DNA from: Anaerovibrio lipolyticus LB2005
GTDB taxonomy: Bacteria; Bacillota; Negativicutes; Selenomonadales; Selenomonadaceae
Length of the DNA: 64,000 nucleotides
Assembly: GCF_000621545.1 (NCBI RefSeq)
Contig: NZ_JHYA01000010.1
Coordinates: forward strand, 62,001 to 126,000
Reading direction: 5' to 3'
Shown here piece by piece: positions 18,511 to 46,212 of this stretch; the stretch's first letter is position 1, and each line of letters opens with the position of its first letter. The translations under genes and the position numbers were made by a program. The notes under the pieces are model-generated. The model was not told where the DNA came from, ran no database searches, and saw nothing but the letters and a program-made list of their open reading frames with translations.

Positions 18511-18567
18511 TTTAACCACTCCCAAAATAGAAATATCCCAATTCAAAGCATTACATATTCCACTTAG

Positions 18568-18596: not shown

Positions 18597-18660
18597 GTGA
18601 AATTAAAAGTTTTTTACTGTTATTAAAAATATTAATTGCAACACTGACATCATCGAAAAA

Positions 18661-18694
18661 AATAACTGCCACGCTCAATAGCACGACAGTTATT
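18661..18694 (-). terminator. Intrinsic terminator between flagellin genes
   Basis: AATAACTG and CAGTTATT form the stem, with an inner GCT/AGC pairing, followed by seven T residues on the minus strand. It separates the 769-residue flagellin gene from the next one. Confidence 0.75.
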
Positions 18695-18714
18695 AATCAT
18701 ATTTTTAAACACTA

Positions 18715-21024: not shown

Positions 21025-21098
21025 TTAGTCTCACCACCTAGCATCCTTGCTATTTTGACATCCATGAAAGATATCCTCTCCCTCCCACGGGCGAGGTA

Positions 21099-22889: not shown

Positions 22890-22940
22890 AATAATCACCT
22901 ATATCTTTGCACACAAAACAAGAATAATAGACTTCAATTA

Positions 22941-25046: not shown

Positions 25047-26228
25047 TTATCCTTTCATCCATGTATATATTCCAAAATACTCTTGAATGAGTGTATCTGC
25101 AATGCTACTGTATTTTATAAAATCATCGTATTCGACTAATCCTTTTGCCTCTAAATCATCGGCTATTACATCTTCATAAGCAAAAGGTGTAATCACTATA
25201 CAATAATTATGGCTTGCAATAATGCTATCATCTGGTTGTTTTATAGAAATCCCTTTTATATCACATCTTTGCGGTTTTCTATCAAAACAGCATTCTATAG
25301 TAATACCAGTGTACTCCAACATATCCTTGCATTTAATACCAAAGGTTCCGCCCCCCCAGATAATTACAGGTCTTCGGATTATACGCTTCAGTATATCACC
25401 CAAAATTTTATAATTATACCTAACACACCTATCTATAATATATGCACTAAGATATGTCTTTATCATTTTAAGATAGTCATAAAGCATACCTTCTTTTGGC
25501 ACTACATATCCACATTTATTGATTTGTTCCAAACAATAATCTATACACCCACTTTTATTCCAACCGTGCAATGCAAATGGAATATCCCTTTTTTTAAAAC
25601 ATTTTAAGGCCATCGGTAAATCAGTCGGGAAATCTAAGCAAAACTTTCTAGCAACTGGGATGGCTGGAACTTTAAAATTGAGATTTTCTTTACTGCCACA
25701 AAATGAAAAGAAATAATCCTCCACCTTCAAAAACATATTTTCCAAATGATATGTTTTTATAATTTTTTCCTTCTGTTCCAACAACTTTATGGTTGAAGAT
25801 ATCTTTCTCAACGATACTCCACCATTTCCAATTTTTGCCCGTCTACGGCCTATAGTATACCTATGATTCATCGGCCAGGCAGAGCCAATATAATCAAATC
25901 CTAACTCACAAAATTCAAATAATCTATCGGAAAACACGAAGCCATCCAATTGATAAATAAGCATATATTCATAATCAGAAAATTTTCGATAAAAATCCAC
26001 TGATAATAGCAGACTACTATAGGATACAGTCCCTGTAAAGTAGTCCTTATCAAGCTCCACGACATCCCACATTTCACAAAAACTGCCATAGGAAAATTCC
26101 AGTCCACGAGGAGCAATAAAAACCTTCGGATAAGCATATAGCACCTTATCTAGCTGTTTTAGAGCTATTAATTCTACATCAGATATTTTTTCACTATATA
26201 TCGGTATAACTATAACCACTTTATTCAT
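25047..26228 (-). CDS. DUF5672 glycosyltransferase with C-terminal Rossmann-like domain
   Basis: Residues 1 to about 235 match the DUF5672 family of presumed glycosyltransferases: YMLIYQLDGFVFSD, then DYIGSAWP and KIGNGGVSLRK. Residues 283-393 form a separate small domain starting PVIIWGGGTFGIKCKDML, with the acidic CCFDRKPQ after the second strand. This is the same Rossmann-like module found in eight other proteins of this operon. The module's role is unknown. Neighbours place the enzyme in glycan assembly, probably on flagellin. Confidence 0.8.
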   Translation of the reverse strand: MNKVVIVIPIYSEKISDVELIALKQLDKVLYAYPKVFIAPRGLEFSYGSFCEMWDVVELDKDYFTGTVSYSSLLLSVDFYRKFSDYEYMLIYQLDGFVFSDRLFEFCELGFDYIGSAWPMNHRYTIGRRRAKIGNGGVSLRKISSTIKLLEQKEKIIKTYHLENMFLKVEDYFFSFCGSKENLNFKVPAIPVARKFCLDFPTDLPMALKCFKKRDIPFALHGWNKSGCIDYCLEQINKCGYVVPKEGMLYDYLKMIKTYLSAYIIDRCVRYNYKILGDILKRIIRRPVIIWGGGTFGIKCKDMLEYTGITIECCFDRKPQRCDIKGISIKQPDDSIIASHNYCIVITPFAYEDVIADDLEAKGLVEYDDFIKYSSIADTLIQEYFGIYTWMKG

Positions 26229-26244
26229 GCTATGCTCCTAGTCA

Positions 26245-27339
26245 TCACATTAACGACTTCTCATCCCAATATATCTTATCCTGTGGCACACCAAGGTCCA
26301 ACAATGTTTTTTTCATTTCACCAGCTACTGCTCTGTTACAAACTGCCAACAACACAAAATCAATTTCTTTCTCATTAATCTGTTGAGGACTGATGATTTC
26401 TTGGGCTGGAGTCGACAATCTTTCATAGTTTCTATCTATCCAAGCAGACAATTTATAGTTATCACTATTCTTTAAATAACCTACATAGTCCCGTCCCACA
26501 TCACCGGCACCATATACAGCCACCCTGGTATTATCTGGTATAACATCCACTGGAAATACGTACTGATACTCGGTTTCTTTGCAATTATCATTGTATACTG
26601 CCTTTAAGAAATGACTGCCTAGAGTTCTGTAATCTATCCCTTTATCATCAAGTGAAATATAATCATAAAAATGTGCCACCATTTTATCATATTTTTCACA
26701 ATTAACCGCTTTTATTCCTGCCAAAGAAAGCATTTTCCCCAGCATAGCTTTATCATAATGCTTTTTGCAAAATAGTCTAATTGTATAATACTGGATAAAT
26801 TCTACAGGAATGGTAAAATCAAAAACCCACTCGGTATCGACCACCTTATAGCTATTCTGATCCTTATTCAATAAAATATTCTCTGCCGAACAATCAAGAT
26901 TAGATAGGTCTGTAGCTGATTCTCCTTCAAGAACAGTACCTGAAGTACCAAAATACTGTTTAAACTGTGCTGAATTATCAAAAGAAACCAGATTAGCATT
27001 GCCAACAATAATACTCTTCCACTTTTGAAGCAATAACTCAACTTTGGCCCAATCACCGGAATCAACAGTATTTTTTAATAAATCATCAAAGCTAATTGCA
27101 TTCTCCAAATACTCATAAAATAAGCTACCATCTTTATATTCACATGAAGCATAACTATCACCGAATACTTTTTTAACCTTCTCGATTATAGAAGCAATAC
27201 GCGAAATATTAGCTTTACCAACATCATAGGTGTTGGTCTTCACTACTACCTTTTCTCCGTTATCCAACGCAAGCATTTTAGTTGTTATCTGAAAAAAAGG
27301 ATTTCGATATGGAGTTGTTTTACAAAAGAAACAATACAT
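26245..27339 (-). CDS. Kinase-fold protein with C-terminal Rossmann-like domain
   Basis: The N-terminal 250 residues look like a choline/aminoglycoside-kinase fold. There is a basic strand EKVVVKTNTY, a catalytic-loop-like LDCSAENILLN, and KVVDTEWVFDF in the DFG position. The C-terminal roughly 98 residues (RVAVYGAGDVGRDYVGYL, then SAWIDRNYE) are the Rossmann-like module shared across the operon. I choose the ATG ending at 27339, preceded by AGGTGAG, rather than an upstream start that overlaps the methyltransferase gene. With the adjacent methyltransferase it recalls WbdD, a kinase-methyltransferase that caps O-antigen chains. That comparison is inference. Confidence 0.65.
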   Translation of the reverse strand: MYCFFCKTTPYRNPFFQITTKMLALDNGEKVVVKTNTYDVGKANISRIASIIEKVKKVFGDSYASCEYKDGSLFYEYLENAISFDDLLKNTVDSGDWAKVELLLQKWKSIIVGNANLVSFDNSAQFKQYFGTSGTVLEGESATDLSNLDCSAENILLNKDQNSYKVVDTEWVFDFTIPVEFIQYYTIRLFCKKHYDKAMLGKMLSLAGIKAVNCEKYDKMVAHFYDYISLDDKGIDYRTLGSHFLKAVYNDNCKETEYQYVFPVDVIPDNTRVAVYGAGDVGRDYVGYLKNSDNYKLSAWIDRNYERLSTPAQEIISPQQINEKEIDFVLLAVCNRAVAGEMKKTLLDLGVPQDKIYWDEKSLM

Positions 27340-27356
27340 ATACTCACCTGCATATT

Positions 27357-28256
27357 CTACTTGGTTATACAAATCAAATACGAATTTGCAAACAGCTTAA
27401 ACTCGTTTTTCATATCTAAACTATTTAAAAATTGAATTTCATCCAGTGACTTGCCTCTCTTTTTATAATAATTACTTGATGGTTCTACGAAATCTCCTAC
27501 ACTAGGCAAAAAATCATCTGAATATATTACTCGCGGAAACTTATAGTCAGGATGAGGATACATAAACCTATATTTTTTTATCCCACATTTTTCCAGTAAA
27601 TTAATCCATTCGTTATATGAAAATGTTTTGGCATTTTTATACTTTGGGTAGCCGTTAATACCTTCATAGGCGTAGCCCGCATGGTCTTCGATACATCCAG
27701 ATAAATACTTTGCACCCAGGCGATTTTCAATGGCGATATACAATTGTCCGCCCTCTTTCACTTTACCGAGAACATCCAACAAAAAATCCACATAAGGATT
27801 ATCTGAATGGAAATAATGCATTGCATATTCGAACACACCTATAAGGGTAACAACATCGTATTGTCTGTCCAGATGCACATCCTGATAACTACCCACATAT
27901 ATTTCCACATTATCACAGGAATGGTTTTTATAAGCATTTATCATGGACCGTCTCTCAGACAACTCCACACAATTAACCACTGCTGCCCGTTTAGCTAATG
28001 CCCCTGTAATTGCACCACATCCAGAACCAATTTCCAGCACTGTATCATTCTTGGAAATCATCATTGGTTCCACAATACATTCACGCTCTTTTGACAAATG
28101 ATAAAAAATCGGAAAGCTGTCCGTCGCTGCTGCAATTGCATCGTATTGTTCATTCTCTTTAACAAATTGCAACAATGTTTCTTCCACATCACCATCAGAG
28201 TATGTATCCGATGTGTGGTTATATTCATAATTTAACTTTACTAAAGTTTCTTTCAT
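27357..28256 (-). CDS. Class I SAM-dependent methyltransferase
   Basis: Motif I is VLEIGSGCGAITGALAKRA, followed by an acidic VNCVELSERR (motif II) and DVVTLIGVFEYA (motif IV). The 299 residues fit a small-molecule or sugar O-methyltransferase. The long C-terminal region with ENRLGAKYLSG and ARVIYSDDF-like segments resembles methyltransferases paired with glycan-chain kinases. It lies 17 bases before the kinase-fold gene. A role in methylating the glycan end is plausible. Confidence 0.8.
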   Translation of the reverse strand: MKETLVKLNYEYNHTSDTYSDGDVEETLLQFVKENEQYDAIAAATDSFPIFYHLSKERECIVEPMMISKNDTVLEIGSGCGAITGALAKRAAVVNCVELSERRSMINAYKNHSCDNVEIYVGSYQDVHLDRQYDVVTLIGVFEYAMHYFHSDNPYVDFLLDVLGKVKEGGQLYIAIENRLGAKYLSGCIEDHAGYAYEGINGYPKYKNAKTFSYNEWINLLEKCGIKKYRFMYPHPDYKFPRVIYSDDFLPSVGDFVEPSSNYYKKRGKSLDEIQFLNSLDMKNEFKLFANSYLICITK

Positions 28257-28273
28257 ACAGCTATCATCCTAAA

Positions 28274-29497
28274 CTACAATATCTTCGCTATAATCTGACC
28301 GTAATATTTGGGATCATCAATATCCAGAATTTCCTGATCAGCAATTTGGGAAACATACTTATATTTATTGCTCACCTTATACCCCAATCCCGCTTTGTAC
28401 CAATCATAATCCATATCAATTTGCCCAATATCAACCACTTGATACCCTGCCTTAAATAAATCATAGGCCAAAACCTTACCCGCCGGCCCTAAAACCATCA
28501 GTATCAGTTTATCTTTGGGCAAGTTCATAGCTTTATTTTTTATCTCATTATACCTGTCAAAAGCATTCTTGGTAGGAGCCAACACTCGCTCTATTGTTGC
28601 AGCGTTATCCAGTAAATCATTTCCGGCCCCAGTACGTGTCTTATCCCCTTCGATAATTACAATGTTTTTATTGTCCCAAATCCGCTTTATATTAGCAATT
28701 CGCCTTGGTGTATTTTCCTTGTCCTTGTATGGCATATAAGGTTTAAACATATAGGCGTCATAATATGTCATGGACATATTCAATACTGATAAATGAAACC
28801 TCCTAACATCTTCTGTCATGTACTCTCTTATACCATCTGCTATATCTTCAGTATATTTGTCCAATTCACCGTAGTTATCCGCTATACCTAGCAATAAATT
28901 TTTTTCATTGACCTGTACAATTTCTCTAAGACGTAACCCCAATTCATCCGAACATCTTTGGAAAGGTGCCCTGTTTTTGCCAGCCATTATTTCGAATTCA
29001 CCATCACCAAAACGAATAAATGAACAGCCCCCATCAGCCATTTTATTTATTGCCTCACTTGTGTCACCAAGCTTAGGGAATGTCACTGAGTAACCTCTAT
29101 AAGCATCAAGAACTTCATATTTATTATTGCGTAACCTAAGCTTTATTTTTTTATTTTCCTCTTTAAGTAAAACATTCTCCCACGTATATCTGTCCAATAT
29201 TCCTATATCTGCGTATTGGGCAAAAGACTCAGAATCGAAGAAACAAATCAATTTATCCGGCACTTTACCCGACTCTCTATATTGGTGAATTACCGCGTAA
29301 TACTCCCTAATAGAGGCAATAATATAGTCATACTCCAGCACCATCCCCAAACTAAAAATTGGCAAATTATCAACCGTTTGCCCAATTTTATCAGGATTAT
29401 TATCAATATATCCCTTCAGTTCGCATTTATCGGTGTTCAATGCCTCACGAATCATTATCCTTGCAGCACCTACGCCCCAAATGTACACTTTAATCAT
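28274..29497 (-). CDS. GT-D fold glycosyltransferase with N-terminal Rossmann-like domain
   Basis: Residues 1 to about 115 are the shared Rossmann-like module (VYIWGVGAARIMIREAL, then GYIDNNPDKIG). The rest matches the DUF1792/GT-D glycosyltransferase family (SP_1767 type): SFIRFGDGEFEIMAG carries the DxE metal-binding motif, and IIEGDKTRTGAGNDLLD is also diagnostic. The GT-D fold was described for streptococcal adhesin glycosylation, where the enzyme adds glucose to a growing O-glycan. The 407 residues are well conserved end to end. It likely extends the flagellin glycan. Confidence 0.87.
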   Translation of the reverse strand: MIKVYIWGVGAARIMIREALNTDKCELKGYIDNNPDKIGQTVDNLPIFSLGMVLEYDYIIASIREYYAVIHQYRESGKVPDKLICFFDSESFAQYADIGILDRYTWENVLLKEENKKIKLRLRNNKYEVLDAYRGYSVTFPKLGDTSEAINKMADGGCSFIRFGDGEFEIMAGKNRAPFQRCSDELGLRLREIVQVNEKNLLLGIADNYGELDKYTEDIADGIREYMTEDVRRFHLSVLNMSMTYYDAYMFKPYMPYKDKENTPRRIANIKRIWDNKNIVIIEGDKTRTGAGNDLLDNAATIERVLAPTKNAFDRYNEIKNKAMNLPKDKLILMVLGPAGKVLAYDLFKAGYQVVDIGQIDMDYDWYKAGLGYKVSNKYKYVSQIADQEILDIDDPKYYGQIIAKIL

Positions 29498-29519
29498 ACC
29501 AAAGCCCTCATTTTAAGCC

Positions 29520-30656
29520 TTATTTACCAAATACAACCTTTGATATTATATATCGTCCCCAGTCCGTAAAGGAGAACACATCTATCTTATTGTCAATCTC
29601 CATACTATTAATCTGAGAAAGTATCTCTCCAGAATACATATAGTTAGCAATCAAGACCATACCATAAGTCAAGCTATTCAATATATTAGGTGATTGAATA
29701 GTAATGCCAAAGAAATCTTCACCTTGCCGTTTCGTGCTATTATCGACAACAAGTACCTCGCAATTAGATTTTTTAAGCATACTTACAACTTTTTCACCAA
29801 TTTCTCCAGCACCAAATACTACTATTCTTTTGTTTTTCTTTATGTAAAAATCACTATTTAATACCTGCGATAGGATGACACTTTTCTTCTCAATAATGTA
29901 ATCGACTATCTTGAATATTCTTTTATTATGAACCTGTTTTCTAATATCATCATTTAGCTTAACACAATACTTCTTGAGGGTGCTTTTTAGAACCTTCCGA
30001 TATTCCCTATACCCCAACCACTTTTGAGATGTCGAGACTCCACCATCGCGAAAATAGCTAGCAATGCCTTCACCAATATACTGAAATGAATATCCTTCAA
30101 GTATTAAACTCATAATCAACTCATAGTCAGATACCATTTTATTATGAGTATTAAACATCTTTTCTTTTAAAATATTACTTTTTACTAAGGTGGTTGGGTG
30201 TGGGATCACCATGCCCGTATAAATATGAGTGAAATCTACATCCTTATACTTAAGTATTTGCTGTATTTTACCATTATTATCCGTAATAGCTAAATCACCA
30301 TATATTACATCCGCATTTGTACAGGAAAATACCTTTGCATACCTAGCCAAAGTAGTGGTTTCATACCAATCATCACTATTTATAAAGCCAATCAAATCTC
30401 CCGTTGCAACCTTTATCCCCTTATTCATGGCATCATAAATACCCTTATCAGGCTCACTAACCCAATAAGAAATATATGGCTCATATTTTTTTATTACATC
30501 TAGTGTCCCATCTGTAGAGCCGCCATCAATGATGATATACTCTATATTCTTGTAGCTTTGATTTATAACACTTTTTATAGTCTGTTCAATGGTCTTGGCA
30601 CTATTGAAACTGACTGTGACGATAGAGATTTTTACCACAAATTTTGTTTCCGCCAT
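29520..30656 (-). CDS. GT2 glycosyltransferase with C-terminal Rossmann-like domain
   Basis: The N-terminal 220 residues are a classical GT-A family 2 transferase: ISIVTVSFNSAKTIEQTIKS, YIIIDGGSTDGT, DKGIYDAMNKGI and INSDDWY, the last being the DxD-like metal site. Residues 273-378 (RIVVFGAGEIGEKVVSML) are the operon's shared Rossmann-like module. It is probably cytoplasmic and uses an NDP-sugar donor whose identity cannot be read from sequence. Confidence 0.9.
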   Translation of the reverse strand: MAETKFVVKISIVTVSFNSAKTIEQTIKSVINQSYKNIEYIIIDGGSTDGTLDVIKKYEPYISYWVSEPDKGIYDAMNKGIKVATGDLIGFINSDDWYETTTLARYAKVFSCTNADVIYGDLAITDNNGKIQQILKYKDVDFTHIYTGMVIPHPTTLVKSNILKEKMFNTHNKMVSDYELIMSLILEGYSFQYIGEGIASYFRDGGVSTSQKWLGYREYRKVLKSTLKKYCVKLNDDIRKQVHNKRIFKIVDYIIEKKSVILSQVLNSDFYIKKNKRIVVFGAGEIGEKVVSMLKKSNCEVLVVDNSTKRQGEDFFGITIQSPNILNSLTYGMVLIANYMYSGEILSQINSMEIDNKIDVFSFTDWGRYIISKVVFGK

Positions 30657-30686
30657 GATTACACCACCTGAACACTTATTATTTAC

Positions 30687-32231
30687 TTAAAAAATGCACG
30701 GATTATCTTCAAGCAAATAATAATCTTCATTTTGTATTAAATCAAACGATTTTAATACTTTAACAATCTCAGAACACGCAGACAATCCAGATGCTGAAAC
30801 CAAAATATAATCTACAGATAATAACACATCTGACTTTGGATAAAAAATAGGATAATCTAAATGTTTTCCCTTTCGATGAGAATCAACAAATCCTTTAAAA
30901 TCCAAATCAAAAAGCTTACATATTGCCAAAGCAACCTCCGAAAGTTCACCCGTTCCCCATATTAAAGTTTTTTGTGATTTTTTTATTTTTTTATTCCAAA
31001 AATATAACAACCATAATCTACTGGCAAGATAGTCCATGTTAATGTATTCCTTGCATTCAGTTGTAAAATCACAAAAAACTTTCTTTAAATATTCGTACCC
31101 ATCTAACTGCTTATGTTTAGGATTAAATCCACTTTGAAAAACTTCTTCATATAACGCCAGTAATTGCTTGCCAACACTCTCAAAAGAATGATTGTTATTA
31201 TATGTTATTATCCCATTTGTAATGATTGCATTAATTTTACCGCATGTCGTGTAATCTATAAACCGTAAAAATGTTCTATAGATATCCATGGCCCCGTGTC
31301 CTTCAATTACAAAACCATTAAATTCATTTTTGACCAGTTCTGTTATTCCACCTGCTGGTGATACTAGCACGGGGATACCGTTTGCCATGGCTTCTACTAT
31401 AACTCCTGGATAAGATTCGACATGACTCGCATGTATTAAAGCGTCCGCTTTTTGTAAATACGCTTCAACATGAGTGACCTCACCCTGAAAATTAACATAG
31501 TCATCTAATTTGTGAGATATTACATACTCTTTACACTTAATGGCATACGCCCCTTGATTATTACCAACTAAGTTTAAATAAACCTCTTCACCCTTTTTTT
31601 TACAGAACTCAATAAACTTTATTATTTCTAACTGATTTTTATGTGCAGCTAAAGTACCAATACATATCAGATTGTACTTCGATTTAATAGTGCAATCATT
31701 TTCTGTCGAAACAGGAAGTGCATTATAGGCCACTCGAACACATCTAGATATAATATCCAACCCATTTTCCCATTTTTTACAAAAAAACAATGAATCACAG
31801 CTATGATACTGCGGGAAAATATCAAACCACTCGTAATCAAAAGAATGCTCTTTTACAGGATATATATTCATAATATGCGGAATTTTGCATTCTCGTGATA
31901 CCAACTCCACTGTTATATTTAACTGTACACTATGCAAAATATCAGGATTAAAATCCCTTACGCATTGCAGCACATCATCATAACTATCCAAGCAACCTAA
32001 TATATCAATCCCCTCAATACTTGTTGAAATTGGATACTGCAACGCCATATGCTCCAATTGATTTTCGGTGCATAAAATATCATAAATCTTAGAATGATTG
32101 CCATTTACATCATTCTGAATAACAACCTTAATACAATGTCCCATACATTGCATAATAAGGGCTTGATTTAATAAAACTTTTGCGGCTCCACCAATATTAT
32201 TAGGATGTGCTAAAAAATACAATATTTTCAT
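30687..32231 (-). CDS. GT4 glycosyltransferase with C-terminal Rossmann-like domain
   Basis: This is a GT-B fold family 4 transferase of 514 residues. It has an N-terminal FLAHPNNIGGAAKVLL, and the donor-binding domain has YNLICIGTLAAHKNQLEIIK and ADALIHASHVESYPGVIVEA, the latter holding the conserved E-x7-E pattern. Residues 417-514 (TLIWGTGELSEVALAICK) are the shared Rossmann-like module. It starts 10 bases after the small stand-alone version of that module. Confidence 0.88.
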   Translation of the reverse strand: MKILYFLAHPNNIGGAAKVLLNQALIMQCMGHCIKVVIQNDVNGNHSKIYDILCTENQLEHMALQYPISTSIEGIDILGCLDSYDDVLQCVRDFNPDILHSVQLNITVELVSRECKIPHIMNIYPVKEHSFDYEWFDIFPQYHSCDSLFFCKKWENGLDIISRCVRVAYNALPVSTENDCTIKSKYNLICIGTLAAHKNQLEIIKFIEFCKKKGEEVYLNLVGNNQGAYAIKCKEYVISHKLDDYVNFQGEVTHVEAYLQKADALIHASHVESYPGVIVEAMANGIPVLVSPAGGITELVKNEFNGFVIEGHGAMDIYRTFLRFIDYTTCGKINAIITNGIITYNNNHSFESVGKQLLALYEEVFQSGFNPKHKQLDGYEYLKKVFCDFTTECKEYINMDYLASRLWLLYFWNKKIKKSQKTLIWGTGELSEVALAICKLFDLDFKGFVDSHRKGKHLDYPIFYPKSDVLLSVDYILVSASGLSACSEIVKVLKSFDLIQNEDYYLLEDNPCIF

Positions 32232-32241
32232 AGTCTTTTTC

Positions 32242-32571
32242 TCACAGATTTCTGATTAAATGAATATTATTAATTTTTTCCTTTACCAATTGATAAAAAA
32301 TATCCTTTGAATAATAATTGTATACTATGTAATCTAAATCTGAATATTTTTCCACAAGTTCATTATAAGACTGAACTACTACTCCATTTATCTCTGTTCC
32401 CCATTTGGCTGGATCATTATCTGCAATAGCCCTTACTCTGTTATAAAGCTTTCTTTCCTTAAGATGATATACCAACTTATCGAGCATACTACCTGCACCG
32501 CAAATAATAATCCCCGAAGTCTGCCCTAATACATCATCATTATTTATTTTACCAATAAACTTAATGCACAC
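32242..32571 (-). CDS. Stand-alone Rossmann-like module
   Basis: The whole 109-residue protein is the module that its neighbours carry as a fused domain: GIIICGAGSMLDKLVYHL, then AIADNDPAKWG and DLDYIVYNY. No transferase domain is attached. It lies between the deacetylase gene (one base away) and the GT4 gene (10 bases). A free copy in the same operon supports the idea that the module works as an independent unit, perhaps for nucleotide binding or complex formation. Function is unknown. Confidence 0.75.
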   Translation of the reverse strand: MCIKFIGKINNDDVLGQTSGIIICGAGSMLDKLVYHLKERKLYNRVRAIADNDPAKWGTEINGVVVQSYNELVEKYSDLDYIVYNYYSKDIFYQLVKEKINNIHLIRNL

Positions 32572-32572
32572 A

Positions 32573-33478
32573 TTATGCCTCCCAAAATTCTTTTATCTTA
32601 TTTTTAAAAATCTCGATAGGCCAATCTCTTATAATATTCCTGGGAACTTGGTAATTATCCATTCCATCTGTCCAAACGCCTGGATAATTTGCAGCCACCC
32701 GCTTAAAATCTAATTGTTTACATATATTAACACTTTCATTAGTATAATCCATTTTTCCACCAAATGGATATGAAAAAGTGGTTACTTCATAACCTAATAA
32801 TTGCTCTAATTTCTCTTTGGATTTACTTATCTCCTCAAATTGTTCCTCATTATTTAGTGTGGATAACCGTGGATGATGTATAGTATGTGCCCCTATATGA
32901 ATAATCTTATGATTAACTATCTTCAATTCTTCCGAACTACAAAGCATATTATCTTTCCTACCAGTCTCATCTATCCCATTCCATGTTCGTAGAGCACCAA
33001 GCCACTTCTCCCTTTTATCAACAGTGACAAAATCCTTCATCAACCAATGAAGCGATTTGTATGTTTCAAGCCTTTGTGCGTTATCATATGTAGCAAAGTG
33101 ATAACCAAATACGTCATCTTCCAACACGAATTCTTTAGGACAATTACGTGGTATCAACAAATTCCGTTCTAATTCATCCCACCACAATTCACGATCTGTA
33201 TCAATATTTCCTGTTGACACAAAAATTGTTGCTGGGGCATTATATCTTTCCAATATAGGTGCAGCATACAAAATATTATCCCTATATCCGTCATCAAAAG
33301 TTATACAAACAGCCTCACCATCAATATTATCCCAGTCATCATCAAAACTAACCACATTATAATTCGTTGTTAGCCATTTTATCTGTTCTGAAAAATTATC
33401 GACTTTTACTGATAACAGTTGAGGATCGTCATTATAATCTCTAACCCTATGATAAAGCAAAACCAAAACCTTCCCCAT
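32573..33478 (-). CDS. NodB-type polysaccharide deacetylase
   Basis: This is a carbohydrate esterase family 4 homologue of 301 residues. Motif 1 is AVCITFDDGYRDN (metal-binding DD), motif 2 is HIGAHTIHHPRLS, and motif 3 lies near TFSYPFGGK. No signal peptide or membrane segment is visible, so it should act in the cytoplasm, deacetylating a sugar nucleotide or lipid-linked glycan. Within the operon it would expose an amine on an N-acetylated sugar. Confidence 0.85.
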   Translation of the reverse strand: MGKVLVLLYHRVRDYNDDPQLLSVKVDNFSEQIKWLTTNYNVVSFDDDWDNIDGEAVCITFDDGYRDNILYAAPILERYNAPATIFVSTGNIDTDRELWWDELERNLLIPRNCPKEFVLEDDVFGYHFATYDNAQRLETYKSLHWLMKDFVTVDKREKWLGALRTWNGIDETGRKDNMLCSSEELKIVNHKIIHIGAHTIHHPRLSTLNNEEQFEEISKSKEKLEQLLGYEVTTFSYPFGGKMDYTNESVNICKQLDFKRVAANYPGVWTDGMDNYQVPRNIIRDWPIEIFKNKIKEFWEA

Positions 33479-33524
33479 AGTTCCCCCTTATGATGTTGCT
33501 CCAACATTAATATTTTTAGTAGTA

Positions 33525-34739
33525 TCACGGCCTATCTACAACTTTATCTATTGGTATAATTTTGCACCTAATTTGTTGTGACACCTTAGACTTGATACGT
33601 TCCAAATCATACCCCGGTATCACAAGCACCGCATCCAATTCATTGGAAATTGCCTCAGGCACGACTACTGGTATCCCTTTATAATCTTCTGAAATAGGAT
33701 GTGATTCAATTACTGAAGTAACCTTTATAGAATTACTAAAACTATCAATTAATAAATCACATATTTTTCCTGTACCCCAAATTCCTATTCTCGATATATT
33801 TTTTTTACACAACCATTCTTCAATACTGCCATGTTGTAAGGTTACTTCTACCCATTTACTTAAGAAATCACGATAGTATTTTTCTCTTATAACAGGGTCC
33901 ACCCATGGATAATAGTCAGCAAAAACCTCTTTATAATTTGGAACGACTTCTACTACATCTGGCAACACAAAACTATCCACACTATCAGGTAACAATTCCC
34001 TTCCGTCTTTAGCTACTCCACAATGTACTCCTGTTCCATCAAGGCCAATGTTTTTCACTAACGATCTATACGCTTCCAAGCATAATCCACGCTCTTGTAT
34101 TACTGACAAAGCCCAGAAAGCTGCCCAAGAATCTGTTTTGCCCTGCACATTCCCAATCAATGTTGCTTCCAGATCCTGCCCCCAAATCTGACACCATTCA
34201 TATAAACTGTCATCTTGTTTTATTCTTGCAACTATGCGATAATCTCGTTTAAAAAATTGCCACCTATCTTTCCAAGTACCCCAACCCCACGACTCAATTC
34301 TCCCACCGAAGTAAGCATCACACCCATTGGGTGGAACCATAACTTCTTCAGAAGAAGCACCTATACTAAATACCTGTTTTTTATCCTTATATTTTTCTAG
34401 TGCTGCATTCATGTAATCCATAAACAAGTGATGAGTCACGCAATCATCCTCTAACACAATTACAGCATCAAAGTAATTGAAGACATAATTCACACCATCT
34501 ACAATTGAGTCACTCAATCCTTTATTGTTTTTATTACTTATTATTTCCGTATCACACCACTTCACGTCATGTATTATATTCTCTACCTGATTCCACTTAT
34601 CGACATCAGTACCATCCTTCATTCCATCGTGAAAAATAAATAATTTTTCTGGCAACTGGTCATTATTTTTTAAAGAATCAAGCACTAATTTAGTGTGCTC
34701 AGGCCGATTATATGTAAATAAAATGGTTGCTATCTTCAT
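33525..34739 (-). CDS. GT-A type glycosyltransferase with C-terminal Rossmann-like domain
   Basis: The N-terminus is TILFTYNRPEHTKLVLDSL, with IVLEDDCVTHHLF as the metal-binding acidic cluster and GGRIESWGWGTWKDRW further on. This is the pattern of GT2/GT13-like transferases (GNT-I-like). Residues 313-404 (RIGIWGTGKICDLLID) are the shared Rossmann-like module in a somewhat diverged form. The protein is 404 residues. The donor and acceptor are unknown. Confidence 0.83.
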   Translation of the reverse strand: MKIATILFTYNRPEHTKLVLDSLKNNDQLPEKLFIFHDGMKDGTDVDKWNQVENIIHDVKWCDTEIISNKNNKGLSDSIVDGVNYVFNYFDAVIVLEDDCVTHHLFMDYMNAALEKYKDKKQVFSIGASSEEVMVPPNGCDAYFGGRIESWGWGTWKDRWQFFKRDYRIVARIKQDDSLYEWCQIWGQDLEATLIGNVQGKTDSWAAFWALSVIQERGLCLEAYRSLVKNIGLDGTGVHCGVAKDGRELLPDSVDSFVLPDVVEVVPNYKEVFADYYPWVDPVIREKYYRDFLSKWVEVTLQHGSIEEWLCKKNISRIGIWGTGKICDLLIDSFSNSIKVTSVIESHPISEDYKGIPVVVPEAISNELDAVLVIPGYDLERIKSKVSQQIRCKIIPIDKVVDRP

Positions 34740-34799
34740 ACCTATCTCCCAAACTTCAATACGTCAATTCAGTATCAACTAAAACACATTTTTTATTAA

Positions 34800-34966
34800 C
34801 TATTTTTTTATCTCATAATATAAAATCTTGGTCGTACATATTCCTATATATAATTCATTATGGCACCTTTCTGCATCTGACCAAGTTGTAAACTGCTTAA
34901 CCTCAACTAATAACAATCCGTCCCATAATTTCTCCCCAAAGGTTCCAAGCACCCAACCGCAACTCA
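34800..34966 (-). pseudogene. Frame-shifted tail after the propeller gene, possible decayed Rossmann-like module
   Basis: Directly after the stop at 34967 another minus-strand frame stays open to a stop at 34800. It reads WVLGTFGEKLWDGLLL and EVKQFTTWSDAERCHNEL. The G-x-F-G-E-x-L pattern resembles the shared module, and a one-base slip in a T/A run would fuse it to the preceding protein. No start codon or ribosome-binding site of its own is evident. Confidence 0.4.
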
Positions 34967-36046
34967 CTACAAAATATTTAAAAATGTTTCTAAAGGTAGC
35001 ATTTTTTCTGTAACAACACCAACTTTACTTTTTTGGTATAATGCCACAAATTCTTCCATTGAAGGTCCATTAATTTTTAACCACTCAGCCTTACCATCTT
35101 CTTTATTAATATAAAGCATGTGGCTGGTCGCACACATTGAAAAATATTCAATGCTATCTTCTTCACAGCTAAGATAAAATCTCGATTGTCTCTCATTTTC
35201 TTCGTTAAAAGCGAATCCTTCTGGATAATCTAAATATTTCTCAACCCTATTTTTTTTATAATTATAAACTAAAATTTCGTTATATCTACTAGGTAATATC
35301 CAGAGATTGACTTTTGTAGCAACAATTCTGGAAAAACCACTTTCAATACTGGAATAATCCAGTATTTTTTTTGCTAGCAGCTCACTTTCTTTCCAGCAAT
35401 ATATCTCATTTTTTTTAGTTAATGCAAAAAAAATGTTATCAAAAATAGTAATATCTAGGCATTCACTCAAATTTGAAGGCAATGAATCATACCGTATTTG
35501 TTTATTGGATAAATTAAATGTGTACACTCTCTTTAAGTTCGGTGAATACAGCCTGACTTCTAAATCTTTTTTTAGTGCCTTAATAAACACTACCTCTCCT
35601 TTACAATCTAACTTCTCTTGTTCGTTTATTCCAATATCATATTCTAAAACTTCGTTTTTATCTATATCAAAAGCATATATTATCGATTCGTATTTTGGGA
35701 ACACCCACACATATCCATCAAAAATAAACGCTAATAGATAATTTAAGTCACTGCAATTATAATGCCCCTTCATAAATGCATAGCATTGCGTTGACTCCAG
35801 TTTATAATTATATTTTAAAAGTCTTCTACCGGTTAATTCTACCAAAAAAAGAAATTCATCTTTTATTAAAAAAATGTTACTCCCAGCCCATCCCATGACA
35901 GAAAATCCTGATGGACCATCTATTAAGTGACTTTCTCCTGTTTCCAGATTAACAGAAGCAAGTGCTTTCTCATTAAACGTACAAATCCATAGTTCAGTAC
36001 TACTTTTTTTTTGGCAGGCGACAAAGTGAAACAAATCCCCAATCAT
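34967..36046 (-). CDS. Hypothetical protein, probable beta-propeller
   Basis: I do not recognise a named family. The 359 residues show regularly spaced aromatic and hydrophobic strands with turn motifs (ELWICTFNEKALASVNLETG, WAGSNIFLIKDEF, DGYVWVFPKYES, IFFALTKKNEIYCW), suggesting a six- or seven-bladed propeller. No signal peptide is seen. It lies inside the glycosyltransferase operon between the GT56-like and GT-A genes, so it may be a scaffold or binding protein for glycan assembly. Its C-terminus may have been lost to a frameshift. Confidence 0.55.
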   Translation of the reverse strand: MIGDLFHFVACQKKSSTELWICTFNEKALASVNLETGESHLIDGPSGFSVMGWAGSNIFLIKDEFLFLVELTGRRLLKYNYKLESTQCYAFMKGHYNCSDLNYLLAFIFDGYVWVFPKYESIIYAFDIDKNEVLEYDIGINEQEKLDCKGEVVFIKALKKDLEVRLYSPNLKRVYTFNLSNKQIRYDSLPSNLSECLDITIFDNIFFALTKKNEIYCWKESELLAKKILDYSSIESGFSRIVATKVNLWILPSRYNEILVYNYKKNRVEKYLDYPEGFAFNEENERQSRFYLSCEEDSIEYFSMCATSHMLYINKEDGKAEWLKINGPSMEEFVALYQKSKVGVVTEKMLPLETFLNIL

Positions 36047-36073
36047 ATTACAGTCCCCACTTTATAATACCAT

Positions 36074-37447
36074 TTAATCATTTTCGTCTAATACTAGTTT
36101 CCATTTTTTTGCAATAGTAGCATTAGAATAATATGCCTTAATAATATCCATATTCCTTTTTTTTACATCATCTGGGAGGAATAAAATTTCCTCTATGCTT
36201 TCCCGAGATAATTTAATCACATCATAAGTTTTTATCCCTATTCTTTTGAAAAAAGATGCCATCGATGTATTTTGTCTAATGTATACCTTTCTACCAAAAT
36301 ACAACAATGCAATAATATTTCCCAACGCTTGCTGTCTATCATTATTGTAAATACCAACATCACAATTTGCTAAATACTGCAAATATTGACCAAATGGAAT
36401 GAATTTGCACATTGGATAAAATATATCTCCTAAAATTTCTTTCCCACATTGTATGACTTCCAACCGATAATGTTCTTCCCCATAAGATAACGGCACACAA
36501 ATTCTAACTTTTTCACGAACTAAGTGCTTTAGCAATGCAAAAGCTTCTCTATGATTATTCTCCTGCGTAGCAGAGTTCCCCAATGTTATTGTTATGTCCC
36601 CTTTTTGTTTTTCATATTTGTATTTCTCATCAATAAAGTTATAGTGTGATGGCATTGGTACTTCGTAGAATTTAGTTGTTTCCAATCCTAATATTGCTTT
36701 AATTGCCAAAGAGTCTTCATGTATTAGATTTAATACTCCAGCACATGAATCAATGGCAGTACTAAACGTTTTTAATATTTTCCTTTTATTCGCATCATAT
36801 CTAAAAACATAAAAATCTCCGCCCCAAAATTGCATATATGTTTTTTTTAGTAATTTAGGGGGATACAATAAAATCATGTCCGTATCAAATATACCTGACA
36901 ATATTATTTTTTTTACAGGCTGTAATAAGTCTAAAACCAACTTATGGTTTAAAAACTCTCTCATGTTAATAATTTCATACACTTGTTTCTTCTTAGCACT
37001 TTTCCTAAAAGAATTTCTGTACACAAAAAATATATGGTTATATCCTTGTAAGTCTTTTTGCATAAAATCAATGTAGCCATTCGTGAACTTATCATTGGTC
37101 AAAATATGTAAAACTGCCCCATTAAAGTTATTATTTCTAATTTTTTGATATTCATCAAGAACAAGAACTTGTTCTTGGAGTTTATTCTCCTCATATAGGC
37201 TTATAATATTTAACCCTAAATTCCCTATTTGCTGTCTGATATTAGCAACATTTTCAGCATCCATATTTGATATATATAAAACATCAAACTCAATATTATT
37301 AATTTTGTCACTTTTATATACCTTAACACCCTCAACTGTCTCTTCTGACAAAAAATTATCAAAAAAACACACTACCTCATGCTCATTTTCAAAATGCTCT
37401 TTCAATATTTTCCCGTAAAAACCCGCTCCCCATATCGCAATTTTCAT
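36074..37447 (-). CDS. GT56-like (TDP-Fuc4NAc transferase type) with N-terminal Rossmann-like domain
   Basis: The first 100 residues are the shared module (IAIWGAGFYGKILKEHF, then CFFDNFLSEE). The remainder resembles WecF/RffT, which transfers 4-acetamido-4,6-dideoxygalactose from TDP onto a lipid-linked acceptor. Characteristic stretches are YMQFWGGDFYVFRYD, ITLGNSATQENNHREAF, VPLSYGEEHYRLEV and NNDRQQALGNIIALL. The protein is 457 residues, longer than WecF because of the fusion. It suggests the glycan contains a 4-amino-4,6-dideoxyhexose, consistent with the DegT aminotransferase and GNAT in the adjoining operon. Confidence 0.83.
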   Translation of the reverse strand: MKIAIWGAGFYGKILKEHFENEHEVVCFFDNFLSEETVEGVKVYKSDKINNIEFDVLYISNMDAENVANIRQQIGNLGLNIISLYEENKLQEQVLVLDEYQKIRNNNFNGAVLHILTNDKFTNGYIDFMQKDLQGYNHIFFVYRNSFRKSAKKKQVYEIINMREFLNHKLVLDLLQPVKKIILSGIFDTDMILLYPPKLLKKTYMQFWGGDFYVFRYDANKRKILKTFSTAIDSCAGVLNLIHEDSLAIKAILGLETTKFYEVPMPSHYNFIDEKYKYEKQKGDITITLGNSATQENNHREAFALLKHLVREKVRICVPLSYGEEHYRLEVIQCGKEILGDIFYPMCKFIPFGQYLQYLANCDVGIYNNDRQQALGNIIALLYFGRKVYIRQNTSMASFFKRIGIKTYDVIKLSRESIEEILFLPDDVKKRNMDIIKAYYSNATIAKKWKLVLDEND

Positions 37448-37460
37448 ATATCCTCCCTAT

Positions 37461-38495
37461 TTATTCTACATATAAAACAGTCTCTGAAGCGTATGTGGTA
37501 TAATGTCTTATTTTCATTTTACATTCCGGCCAAATACTTATAATATAAGAGCCTATATCATAAATATCCGATTTTTTATGATAAATACAAATGGCCAGCT
37601 TAGGTTTATCCCTGATAATTATCTTTTCTGCACCATGTAGTGCTTTTAGCTCCGCCCCCTCTATATCCATTTTTATAAAGGAAACCTTTTCTTTTATAGT
37701 ATCATCAATGGTGGTACATTTTATAACCATCTGCCCAGTGGAAACGATTGAAGAACCAGCACCAGAAACATTAAAATTCAATTCTTCTATTGAATCCCAC
37801 AACCCAGCATTTATCACTTCAATATTCTCCAATCCCTCTTTTTCTATCTTTTGTTTTATATTTTCAGCTTGCCTTGGTTCAGGCTCATAACAAATGATTT
37901 TGGAATAATTACCTTGACCGACCCAATTCATAAATATCTTGGCAGTTGCTCCATCATAAGCACCACCATCTATCAAAACACCATCAGACGGAGCTGAAAA
38001 AACATCAATATACTGTTTTTCCCAGTTTGAGCCTATCACAATTCCATTCCACGGTATATATATTTGCTTCTCTGGTACATTATTAATAATCAATTTTTGA
38101 AACATCGATATCCCATACTTTTCAGACCCCACAATAAATAAATGGTTAGGATATTGTTCTATAGCATTTTCAACGCTAATAACCTCCACGCCATCAACTT
38201 CGATATTATTTTTGTATGTATCACAAAAACAATCTATACTGTAACCACAACAATCAAGCGCTACTTTAGACAATCGTCCTTCTTCCCCACAACCATATAT
38301 AATAATCCCTTCACAATCTTTAATTTTGTTAACTAATCTCTCATCAAGTTTAGGCTTATGACAATATTTAGCCAATTCTGGAGTAAATTCCATCTGGTGA
38401 TCAGACATACTTTTCTTAATCATTAGTGTGAAAAGGTGTTTTGATTCTTCATCCTGTAATCTATTAAATATTTCTATATAATTCTCAAATACCAT
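37461..38495 (-). CDS. FkbM-family methyltransferase with N-terminal Rossmann-like domain
   Basis: Residues about 58-150 are the shared module (GIIIYGCGEEGRLSKVAL, then CFCDTYKN). The C-terminal half is an FkbM O-methyltransferase: VLIDGGAYDGATAKIF (motif I), ICYEPEPRQAENI and FIKMDIEGAELKALHG. It is the first gene of the glycosyltransferase operon, with a GGGGG ribosome-binding site and a sigma-28-like promoter at 38552-38580. It probably methylates a sugar of the flagellin glycan. Confidence 0.87.
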   Translation of the reverse strand: MVFENYIEIFNRLQDEESKHLFTLMIKKSMSDHQMEFTPELAKYCHKPKLDERLVNKIKDCEGIIIYGCGEEGRLSKVALDCCGYSIDCFCDTYKNNIEVDGVEVISVENAIEQYPNHLFIVGSEKYGISMFQKLIINNVPEKQIYIPWNGIVIGSNWEKQYIDVFSAPSDGVLIDGGAYDGATAKIFMNWVGQGNYSKIICYEPEPRQAENIKQKIEKEGLENIEVINAGLWDSIEELNFNVSGAGSSIVSTGQMVIKCTTIDDTIKEKVSFIKMDIEGAELKALHGAEKIIIRDKPKLAICIYHKKSDIYDIGSYIISIWPECKMKIRHYTTYASETVLYVE

Positions 38496-38643: not shown

Positions 38644-39744
38644 TTATTGCTCTAGTATTATCTTGCATATTGATTCCACAACAACATCATCCAAATCACC
38701 GTACATCGGCAATGTCAGCACCTGCTGACTTATACGGTGTGCTATTGGAGTATCCCCTACATACCCTTTACCTACATAGCAATCAAACTCATTGGTCAAT
38801 GGGTAGAAATATTTTCTGACAAAAATGTCATGCTCCGCTAATTTATCAATCACATCATCTCTGGTAGCACCATATTCATCCGGATTAATAACTATTGGGT
38901 AATATGCATAATTAGAGTGGACATTTTCCTTGATTTTGTTAAAGCGTATACCAGGTATACCAGTCAATCCTTGACAATATAGTTCATATATTTTCCTGCG
39001 TTTCTCAATCTCGTCATCAACATGACGAAGGTTACACAATCCCATCGCAGCACAAAATTCATTCAACTTGGCATTGGCACCCACGGCTTCCACTGATTCT
39101 GGACCATGAATACCAAAATTCTTTAGATTATATAGCTTCTGGCCCAAAACCTGATCCTTGAAACAGGCTGCTCCGCCCTCAATGGTGTTAAAAACTTTTG
39201 TAGCATGAAAGCTAAAGCAGGAAACATCACCAAAATTAGCTGTTCCAACGCCCTTATACTTAACTCCAAATGTATGACAAGCATCATAAACCACTTTTAA
39301 ATTATATTTTTGCGCAATTTTTTCTATAGCCTCCACATCACACACATTGCCATACACATGAACAGGCATTATTGCACATGTTTTATCAGTTATCAGGCTT
39401 TCAATTTTATTTACATCAATGGTAAAATCATCAGGATTGATGTCACAAAATACTGGAGTAAGGCCATTGCGTACTATAGCGTGGGTAGTGGACGCAAAGG
39501 TAAATGGAGTAGTTATTACCTCTCCTTGTAAATCCAGAGCTTGTAAAGCCATCTCCAGTGCCATATGCCCATTAGTAAAAAGCTCAATATTCTCTGCTTC
39601 TAAATATTCCTTCAGTTCTTTTTGTAAAGCTTGATGTTTAACTCCCATATTGGTTAGCCAATGAGATTTCCAAATATCTTTTATCTCATTAGTAAATTCA
39701 TCAAACTCTGGCAACGTCGCCTTGGTAACCAATATCTTTTCCAT
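38644..39744 (-). CDS. DegT/DnrJ/EryC1 sugar aminotransferase
   Basis: This PLP-dependent aminotransferase is of the type that makes 3- or 4-amino-deoxysugars on a nucleotide carrier (WecE, VioA, FdtB). The PLP lysine is in CFSFHATKVFNTIEGGAA, with VVYDACHTFGVKY before it. The length is 366 residues, normal for the family. It is the last gene of the acyl operon. With a GT56-like transferase next door, a TDP-4-amino-4,6-dideoxyhexose is the most likely product. A role in aminating an aldehyde made by LuxC cannot be ruled out. Confidence 0.87.
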   Translation of the reverse strand: MEKILVTKATLPEFDEFTNEIKDIWKSHWLTNMGVKHQALQKELKEYLEAENIELFTNGHMALEMALQALDLQGEVITTPFTFASTTHAIVRNGLTPVFCDINPDDFTIDVNKIESLITDKTCAIMPVHVYGNVCDVEAIEKIAQKYNLKVVYDACHTFGVKYKGVGTANFGDVSCFSFHATKVFNTIEGGAACFKDQVLGQKLYNLKNFGIHGPESVEAVGANAKLNEFCAAMGLCNLRHVDDEIEKRRKIYELYCQGLTGIPGIRFNKIKENVHSNYAYYPIVINPDEYGATRDDVIDKLAEHDIFVRKYFYPLTNEFDCYVGKGYVGDTPIAHRISQQVLTLPMYGDLDDVVVESICKIILEQ

Positions 39745-39773
39745 AAGATCACCTGCTGTAAATAAATCAAAAA

Positions 39774-40544
39774 TTAAACAATCAAATTTGAACCTGTAAT
39801 CTTTCCGCCATCAACGCGAACAATCTGCCCAGTTATATAACTTGATAAATCTGAAGCTAAAAATAAAACTGTATTTGCTACTTCTATCGATTTTCCCCAA
39901 CGTCCCAAAGAAGAACGTTTTATAATAGCTTCTGCATGTTTTACATCTAACCCTTTACCCATATCTGTAGCTATCAAACCTGGTGCAACAATATTAACAC
40001 GGATATTATTTCTGCCTAGCTCAGCTGCCAATGTTCTCCCCGAACCAACCAAGGCGGCTTTTGCACCGGCATAACCTAACTGGCCCGACACTCCATCAAG
40101 AGCTGCTATGGAAGAAATAAAAACTATACTGCCACCAGTGCTGTTTCTCATCATAAGACGAGAAATATACTGTGTAAAATGTATTTGTGCAAAAAAATTT
40201 ACATCAAATCCTTTTTTTAAATTTTGTATTGAGTCCATTTGAAAAAGCACATTTTCTGACATTACGCCAGCATTGTTGACTAAAATATCTATTGGCATTC
40301 TTTTTGCCCTAATTTCCATTACAGCTGTTTTCATTCCCCGCTCATCAAGAAGATCAAAACCAACCGGAAAAATTTTTACAGAATTCTGTTTAGATAATTC
40401 TAAAGCATACTGCAAGAAATCGTCATTTACATTTCGTACACAAGCGAATACGTTAGCCCCATTATTGGCGAATACCTTTAATATTTCCTTGCCAATACCT
40501 CGATTACAGCCCGTGATTACAGCATTTTTCCCACGCAACAACAT
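39774..40544 (-). CDS. SDR-family 3-oxoacyl-ACP reductase-like protein
   Basis: This short-chain dehydrogenase/reductase has 256 residues. The NAD(P)-binding motif is TGCNRGIGKEI (residues 11-21), NNAG is at VNNAGVMSE, and the catalytic Ser and Tyr-x3-Lys lie in VFISSIAAL and YAGAKAAL. The C-terminal TGQIVRVDGG is typical of FabG. It lies among ACP and ketosynthase genes, so reduction of a 3-ketoacyl-ACP is likely; sugar-nucleotide reduction is the alternative. Confidence 0.87.
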   Translation of the reverse strand: MLLRGKNAVITGCNRGIGKEILKVFANNGANVFACVRNVNDDFLQYALELSKQNSVKIFPVGFDLLDERGMKTAVMEIRAKRMPIDILVNNAGVMSENVLFQMDSIQNLKKGFDVNFFAQIHFTQYISRLMMRNSTGGSIVFISSIAALDGVSGQLGYAGAKAALVGSGRTLAAELGRNNIRVNIVAPGLIATDMGKGLDVKHAEAIIKRSSLGRWGKSIEVANTVLFLASDLSSYITGQIVRVDGGKITGSNLIV

Positions 40545-40550
40545 TACAAT

Positions 40551-42810: not shown

Positions 42811-42814
42811 GACC

Positions 42815-44859: not shown

Positions 44860-44875
44860 AATTATTCTCCACCAA

Positions 44876-46199: not shown

Positions 46200-46212
46200 A
46201 TCGTATAATAAC

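Follow-up and report, generated by a model that had tools for sequence, protein, structure and literature searches.

A Rossmann-like module recurring on the enzymes of a glycan locus in Anaerovibrio lipolyticus and related genomes

We analysed a window of 64,000 nucleotides from Anaerovibrio lipolyticus LB2005 (contig C9, 62001-126000, of a 2.68 Mb genome) and found that eight enzymes and one stand-alone protein encoded at 25047-38495 carry a homologous Rossmann-like module of ~90 residues. Nine of the twelve genes of this glycan locus thus contain the module, which is fused to a DUF5672 protein, to the protein at 26245-27372, to glycosyltransferases (GTs) of the GT-D, GT2, GT4 and GT-A types, to a GT56-like transferase and to an FkbM methyltransferase, and which stands alone at 32242-32571 (Table 1). 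The three genes without it encode an S-adenosylmethionine (SAM) methyltransferase, a polysaccharide deacetylase and a protein without family. An initial annotation, made from the letters of this DNA, had proposed nine such modules at these places, and all nine were recovered by a profile built on 126 modules taken from outside this genome, with E-values of 5e-19 to 8e-7. The next best frame in that search was a shuffled one (E 0.42, the best among 7,720 shuffled frames). Because the 126 modules had themselves been gathered by iteration starting from the window modules, this test is independent in sequence and not in discovery.

Homology and fold of the module

Compared pairwise, the nine modules resemble each other weakly (best BLASTP E-value 1.6e-6; E <0.01 in 6 of 36 pairs), from which we conclude that they are not recent copies. 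Recent duplication inside the operon was rejected as an explanation, given that identity between modules is ~20% and hardly higher when they come from one genome. In leave-one-out profiles run over the 386 frames of the window, each omitted module ranked ninth, just behind eight better matches, at E-values (Z = 10,000) of 3.7e-9 to 1.2e-3 for eight modules and of 1.1 for the weakest, that of the GT4 protein. When a 60-row profile was run against the whole genome, seven modules scored E 6.1e-8 or better, and those of the GT4 (3.2e-5) and GT-A (1.0e-4) proteins intermixed with other Rossmann proteins (5.5e-6 to 7.8e-4). As genome-scale E-values do not separate these two from other Rossmann proteins, their assignment also rests on the 126-module profile and on hhalign, which, against 60 non-window modules, gave 96.8% (score 49.7) for the GT4 module and 96.3% (45.0) for the GT-A module, compared with 74.9% (30.5) for NeuD, 56.8% (30.0) for a UDP-glucose dehydrogenase-like protein and 78.9% (32.3) for a short-chain dehydrogenase/reductase (SDR), three ordinary Rossmann proteins of the window. 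A chance likeness of Rossmann folds was excluded by these hhalign comparisons and by the non-window profile with its shuffled controls. The profile and hhalign results bear out the proposal of one homologous unit common to the transfer and modification enzymes of a single glycan locus.

Each window module has a GxG pair of glycines, preceded by an aromatic residue in 8 of 9 (the stand-alone module has a Cys there), and each has an acidic residue after the second strand, so that GxG and acidic residue occur together in 9/9. Of the GxGxxG-like start that had been described, the full motif, with its third glycine, is present in only 5/9. Among 135 aligned modules, the two glycines were found in 127, the preceding aromatic residue in 132, the third glycine in 87, and GxG together with the acidic residue in 103. 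Besides these, no polar position is conserved above 63%, a value reached by an Asp before strand 4. Conserved catalytic-type residues of the kind that would mark the modules as nine different enzymes were therefore absent, and that idea was rejected. The placement given in the initial annotation is refined as follows: the module is C-terminal in five proteins (DUF5672, 26245-27372, GT2, GT4 and GT-A) and N-terminal in two (GT-D and GT56-like); in the FkbM protein the module is internal. The kinase-fold label given to 26245-27372 was not confirmed, as neither Pfam nor NCBIfam returned a kinase family match for this protein.

We modelled the stand-alone module with AlphaFold2 from an alignment of 70 modules (predicted local distance difference test, pLDDT, 84.8; predicted template modelling score, pTM, 0.76). 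The model, the only one of good quality, predicts an alternating beta/alpha fold of Rossmann-like type; unrelated folds, which would have spoken against the proposal, did not appear. For the GT4 module, prediction from its sequence alone gave a poor result (pLDDT 47) that neither supports nor refutes the fold. No Foldseek match to the stand-alone model fell below E 0.001; the Foldseek list, mostly at probability 0.98-1.00, was headed by WbaP (rank 1, E 3.3e-3) and Rex, then 3nkl and SucD. Structural comparison placed Clostridium acetobutylicum C2185 (2g6t residues 1-94) on top at Z 10.5, followed at Z 8.3-9.9 by the coenzyme A (CoA)-binding protein SucD (9.9), WbaP (8t53, 9.6), 3nkl, Rex (up to 9.5), the FkbM protein 2py6 (8.6), WeeI, TcaB9 and PerB, where we treat differences in Z of <1 as ties. 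Among the 50 matches listed, the module thus resembles families of the CoA_binding, PglD_N, Rex and WbaP type at Z 8.3-10.5 over 82-100 residues, and the earlier suggestion of kinship to the PglD N-terminal domain and to CoA-binding folds agrees with the matches of the predicted fold to SucD and PglD-type domains. At the level of sequence profiles, the best PDB matches were Rex (E 1.8e-10, positions 3-86 of 97), 3nkl, C2185, VioB and WbaP (E 2e-5); searching the PDB with the stand-alone module alone gave only three matches, at E 0.8-0.98.

By its Pfam scores, the module appears not to be fitted by any single Pfam model. The CoA_binding model PF02629 matched the stand-alone module at 29.1 bits (cut-off 22.3) and the GT-D module at 17.7 bits, with no match up to E 1 in the other seven. 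PglD_N (PF17836) stayed below its cut-off of 23.4 bits, with a best window score of 20.3 (GT56-like), as did C2185-like_N (PF22674; 21.6 bits for 26245-27372, cut-off 27), and the WbaP/PglF accessory domain model PF13727 had no match up to E 1 in any of the nine proteins. Across 70 modules at E 0.01, a tally to which curated cut-offs were not applied, PglD_N matched 28, C2185-like_N 17 and CoA_binding 8.

Several known proteins come close to this arrangement. The WbaP accessory domain (PF13727, CoA_binding_3), also present in PglF/CapD dehydratases, has a like fold according to the model, is likewise a non-catalytic passenger of glycan enzymes, and has been reported to sense nucleotides and to dimerise (PMC10942596). 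It differs in belonging to a single membrane enzyme, where a beta-hairpin serves dimerisation, whereas the window locus has soluble enzymes throughout. C2185, the top structural match, covers the whole module as the N-terminal domain of a longer protein; we found no paper naming CAC2185 in open-access full texts. The Methylobacillus flagellatus FkbM methyltransferase 2py6 shows the same order, module then FkbM, as 37461-38495; it is a single solved protein, and we know of no locus-wide module pattern for it. The N-terminal domain of PglD, NeuD, VioB and PerB is similar in fold and motif and binds a nucleotide sugar beside the active site (7txp, on the list of fold matches, is a VioB complex with a TDP-sugar); it is tied to a hexapeptide acetyltransferase, and the window modules score below the Pfam cut-off for it. 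Separately, a PglF/CapD-type dehydratase, recognised by eye on another contig of the same genome (L084:7414-9333, contig C4), has a weak module-like match at residues 169-217, where a WbaP-type domain is expected.

A locus-wide pattern in related genomes

The module is not confined to the window. Of the 151 genomes of the family, 63 were matched at E 1e-6 by a profile built from the window modules only, and three or more matches occurred in 42, with the caveat that some matches in this count may be other Rossmann proteins. In 20 regions of 14 genomes, 123 of 257 genes on the operon strand carried the module, with ten consecutive genes in one region; having been chosen for holding clusters, these regions do not give an unbiased rate. 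When eight relatives were searched whole, 94 of 95 modules lay inside 11 clusters, one or two per genome. The same eight genomes contained 126 GT2 open reading frames (ORFs), of which 19 of 25 inside the loci had a module and 0 of 101 outside did. This comparison is partly circular, the loci being defined by modules, but the zero outside the loci is not, and it speaks against the module as a generic GT2 accessory, an idea that was rejected. In the window's own genome, a module match was found on 1 of 10 GT2 ORFs and 1 of 10 GT4 ORFs, both in the 25047-38495 locus. The rule that the module belongs to a locus therefore holds in several genomes, which makes the observation stronger than first noted. 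A degenerate tenth module, fused to DUF4422, was seen on the other strand, 2.6 kb to the right of the window (L083:2651-4150, contig C9 128651-130150).

Other families of the phylum have similar clusters as well; in one genome (G291), a stretch of 30 kb contains 14 module genes that score over 20 bits. A search across the phylum (124/398) was not used as a module count, because many of the single matches were Rex-like frames of ~210-240 residues and at most 12 candidates were scored per listed genome. A search for close relatives of the stand-alone protein returned one weak locus, in Bacteroides sp. 224.

The 132 module-bearing proteins of the 20 regions and the window formed 49 BLAST clusters, and a like fold was found on some twenty enzyme families across the module loci. 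We scanned 62 of the 123 module genes, taking alternate ones among those with fewer than 1000 residues; the commonest families, among the best 25 of 35, were GT2, FkbM, radical SAM, GT4 and other transferases, and others were WbsX, DUF5672, deacetylase, cytidylyltransferase, TylF, GT9, TupA-like ATP-grasp, GT11, PIG-L, DUF4422 and MptE-like. Genes without the module, of which 103 of 134 were scanned (excluding those of ~120 residues or shorter, at region ends, or with a module match of 17-30 bits, and keeping L066:8197 despite a partial match of 26 bits), were headed by nucleotide-sugar dehydratases/epimerases (7/103) and DegT (5/103) among the best 25 of 100 families.

This module and its single fusions were already known; as far as searches of open-access full texts go, its locus-wide use is undescribed, and we found there no described system of this design, in line with what had been stated at the outset. 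The authors of the WbaP structure found the conservation of the domain in functionally unrelated enzymes puzzling and proposed nucleotide sensing (PMC10942596). The module pattern turns this enzyme-level puzzle into a testable one at the level of a pathway, and its cluster-wide occurrence hints at one signal or one contact point coordinating the enzyme set.

Candidate functions of the module

Our leading reading, a tentative one with slightly more doubt than belief, is that the module may act as a nucleotide-responsive, dimerising control domain on the transfer and decorating enzymes of a flagellin-glycosylation island (see below). We favour it because the modules conserve the pocket residues and because their nearest tested relative, the WbaP domain, is stabilised by nucleotides. 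The WbaP study reports that the domain is stabilised by uridine mono-, di- and triphosphate (UMP, UDP and UTP) and destabilised by UDP-Gal, that UMP inhibits WbaP at 4.1 uM, and that the domain supplies most of the dimer interface (PMC10942596). In EpsZ, a like domain was modelled at the dimer interface, and this interface is proposed to be under the control of a response regulator (PMC12802240). By analogy, the module would bind a small nucleotide-type ligand, with UMP/UDP-type nucleotides or nucleotide sugars as the first candidates and nicotinamide adenine dinucleotide, NAD(H), as the second, and, as has been suggested for WbaP, binding would shift the dimer state or the activity of the host enzyme. 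Since most transfer steps carry a like sensor, a single nucleotide, released or limiting, would through its level hold back or free the whole enzyme set jointly, and the glycan would be built on flagellin only under the right precursor supply. Such a common control input, if true, would be a simple post-translational co-regulation of a whole glycan pathway. The initial annotation had suggested either a docking unit of a multi-enzyme complex or a reporter of a shared nucleotide cofactor, and the latter half seems to fit better, given that conservation falls on residues of a nucleotide pocket and that UMP, UDP and UTP stabilise the WbaP domain (PMC10942596).

Several observations weigh against this control-domain reading. 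The third glycine is absent from 4 of 9 window modules and from 48 of 135 overall, which makes classical dinucleotide binding doubtful for many modules, and by the column criterion 32 of 135 lack the combination of GxG and acidic residue. The module is not obligatory, as 6 of 25 GT2 ORFs within the loci and three of the twelve window genes do without it. GT2 (7/103) and FkbM (3/103) proteins also appear among the genes without module, and because 2 of 62 module-bearing proteins carry CTP_transf_like, the split between transfer and precursor enzymes is not absolute. Finally, a close flagellin neighbour was seen only in the window's genus, other genera having flagellin 29-92 kb away or none on the contig among the matches listed.

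A possible alternative, if a doubtful one, is that the modules dock, binding each other or a common partner such as flagellin, an export chaperone or a multi-module scaffold, with the pocket a relic or an interface; a docking module, if real, would be a general tag for glycan assembly lines. Its locus-wide use, together with its absence from the 101 GT2 ORFs outside the loci of the eight relatives, speaks for this reading, and in WbaP and EpsZ the related domains sit at dimer interfaces (PMC10942596, PMC12802240). Short proteins that are nearly module only recur, for example with 93 and 115 residues in G045, and a relative of the family encodes a 562-residue protein (L062:6243-7931) with three tandem modules (~256 residues) whose Pfam matches are only to Rossmann-type families, a candidate scaffold or multi-sensor by its domain content. 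The window deacetylase has no module, although the three nearest of its four homologues in the fetched loci carry one at the N terminus (the fourth, in L098, has none; it was found in one listing and is absent from the stricter homologue listing), and its gene directly precedes that of the stand-alone module, as if the enzyme were served by that module in trans. The stand-alone gene has a GTG start, separated by one base from the stop of the deacetylase gene, and the pair is possibly a split fusion that acts in trans with its order reversed. Both homologues of the SAM methyltransferase in the fetched loci are longer proteins bearing the module.

Against docking, the most conserved residues are, in sequence, those of the pocket and the core, and an identity of ~20% is less than one would expect if all modules shared a docking surface. 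There is also little likeness specific to a locus. Between modules on different partners, mean identity was 0.209 within a genome and 0.203 between genomes (1 of 300 shuffles reaches this difference), and BLOSUM score per column was 0.64 within and 0.60 between genomes (again 1/300); pairs with the stand-alone window module and pairs sharing <50 columns were skipped in the module-likeness comparison. Sharing a genome thus hardly raises the likeness of modules on different partners, and no strong locus-specific pairing code is apparent. We read the islands as recruiting enzymes that probably already bear the module, without a strong code of this kind, and a common docking surface is possible despite the weak likeness within genomes.

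Docking and ligand binding could also be combined in a ligand-gated cytoplasmic assembly line, which we consider unlikely. Here the modules would oligomerise only with a shared nucleotide bound, the stand-alone and multi-module proteins would serve as hubs, and a soluble factory would act on flagellin before export. If true, a whole pathway would be built around one shared tag, with a logic like that of polyketide synthase docking domains.

It is quite unlikely that each module merely helps its own catalytic domain to hold donor or acceptor, with no joint role, as the PglD/NeuD N-terminal and TcaB9 C-terminal domains help to hold the substrate of theirs. The sequence of a module does track its partner family: modules on the same partner in different genomes scored 0.94 BLOSUM per column, compared with 0.60 for different partners in different genomes, a difference reached by 0 of 300 shuffles, and the divergence of partner and module correlates (mean identity 35.4% and 29.1%; r 0.76, 209 pairs). 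Many partner families also keep the module at one fixed end; among the DUF5672 homologues of the fetched loci, for instance, 5 of 5 have it on the same side. However, a per-enzyme aid predicts modules on these GT families genome-wide, and the 101 GT2 ORFs outside the loci have none. Both ends are used in some partner clusters (5 N-terminal and 4 C-terminal modules in one cluster of nine), and 59 of 134 modules have their closest match on a different partner in a different genome, so that the tie between module and partner is loose.

A redox sensor of the Rex type, coupling glycan building to the redox state through NAD(H), is very improbable. Rex is the best PDB match by sequence over most of the module, and yet it ties with SucD, WbaP and C2185 in the structural comparison, and the third glycine is absent in about a third of the modules. 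Unlike Rex, a DNA-binding repressor of the winged-helix type, the 109-residue stand-alone protein has no winged-helix domain ahead of the Rossmann domain, and matches to the Rex model span only the Rossmann part. That each module is a separate small enzyme, such as an oxidoreductase, is hardly tenable. The Rossmann fold with its dinucleotide-type motif speaks for it, but the ~90 residues include no substrate domain and, apart from GxG and the acidic residue, no conserved residue of catalytic type.

Flagellin neighbourhood and genomic setting

On the minus strand, by rising coordinate, three flagellin genes are followed by an aminotransferase, a LicD protein, the twelve genes at 25047-38495 and a precursor block that extends to 48932 (Table 1). 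No frame of the precursor block scored above shuffled controls with the non-window module profile. The flagellin gene 21099-22898 contains an inserted region with an HEMTH motif, Pfam matching only its flagellin ends, and we take its product to be flagellinolysin-like.

The first module gene lies 2.1 kb from the window flagellins, and flagellin was found 0.1-2.1 kb from the module locus in 4/4 genomes examined from the genus (that of the window and three congeners), measured gene to gene in two genomes and match to match in two. Of the 20 genomes searched, seven had flagellin on the same contig at a distance of 29-47 kb and two at 72-92 kb, and in a further seven, several of them with short contigs, none was seen on the contig of the module locus; these positions rest on the matches listed, with one further match each in G045, G035 and G077. 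None of six flagellin-less genomes was among the 63 module-positive of 151, a weak association (p ~0.04 by hand, three genera only). By simple hydropathy, at most one membrane stretch is predicted for each of the 39 window genes checked, and none of 271 genes of the 20 relative regions encodes a protein with six or more, as a flippase would have; no lipid-carrier export machinery was seen in either set by this measure. In a second set of 241 genes there was a single protein with six or more stretches, in the comparison locus L084. LpxC is present in the genome, and the cell is therefore probably diderm; together with the Rex-like frames found in many genomes of its phylum, this suggests a Negativicute-like bacterium.

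The locus also contains the DegT, LuxC, LuxE, acyl carrier protein (ACP), FabG, NeuD and FkbM complement of published flagellin islands (PMC4875605). Such islands in Enterobacteriaceae and Geobacillus share these genes with the window locus; the available portions of the two reports mention no such module (PMC4875605, PMC5109656). From the flagellin adjacency, the lack of multi-span membrane proteins and the precursor and acyl genes, we consider it likely that the locus is a cytoplasmic flagellin-glycosylation island in the window's genus, and less so in other genera.

Table 1. Features of the window. Module E-values are from the profile of non-window modules.
Feature	Coordinates	Strand	Module	Evidence
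Three flagellin genes	15553..22898	-		Flagellin_N/C in 21099-22898 and 18715-21024; flagellin matches at C9 80094-84877
DUF5672 protein	25047..26228	-	C-terminal, 25050-25376; E 1.2e-11	PF18922 138 bits
Protein with N-terminal part without family	26245..27372	-	C-terminal, 26248-26535; E 5.1e-19	
SAM methyltransferase	27357..28256	-	none	PF13649 above cut-off
GT-D glycosyltransferase	28274..29497	-	N-terminal, 29198-29497; E 7.3e-11	PF08759 290.7 bits
GT2 glycosyltransferase	29520..30656	-	C-terminal, 29523-29840; E 4.1e-17	PF00535 100.7 bits
GT4 glycosyltransferase	30687..32231	-	C-terminal, 30690-30980; E 5.4e-7	PF00534 88.1 bits
Stand-alone module, 109 residues	32242..32571	-	from residue 17; E 1.6e-12	PF02629 CoA_binding 29.1 bits (cut-off 22.3)
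Polysaccharide deacetylase	32573..33478	-	none	PF01522 82.9 bits
GT-A-like glycosyltransferase	33525..34739	-	C-terminal, 33528-33794; E 8e-7	PF00535 23.2 (cut-off 23.3)
Protein without family, 359 residues	34967..36046	-	none	no family above cut-off in Pfam/NCBIfam scans; weak beta-propeller-type matches only
GT56/WecF-like transferase	36074..37447	-	N-terminal, 37163-37447; E 8.9e-14	PF07429 60.4 bits; NF002756 243.7 bits, below its cut-off
FkbM methyltransferase	37461..38495	-	38022-38318 (residues 60-158), ahead of methyltransferase; E 3.4e-11	PF05050 44.6 bits; TIGR01444 above cut-off
Precursor block	38644..48932	-	none	DegT aminotransferase, two SDRs, LuxC, LuxE, AMP-binding enzyme, carrier protein, two ketoacyl synthase (KAS) III enzymes, NeuD-type acetyltransferase
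Carrier protein in precursor block	44876-45115	-		second carrier-like frame 46213-46434 judged by eye
Protein without family, second modification block	58939-60258			
Glycerol-3-phosphate cytidylyltransferase-like domain joined to oxidoreductase-like domain	60255-61520			
NTP-transferase-like protein	61557-62192			
Haloacid dehalogenase (HAD) hydrolase	62165-62770			

Two further groups of genes lie elsewhere in the window. A second modification block occupies 58939-62770 (Table 1). At 2053-10161, four consecutive genes match JetD, JetC, JetB and JetA of the second Jet (Wadjet) type of PADLOC, with best E-values of 5e-115 to 0, which identifies this segment, by sequence match, as a Wadjet defence system.

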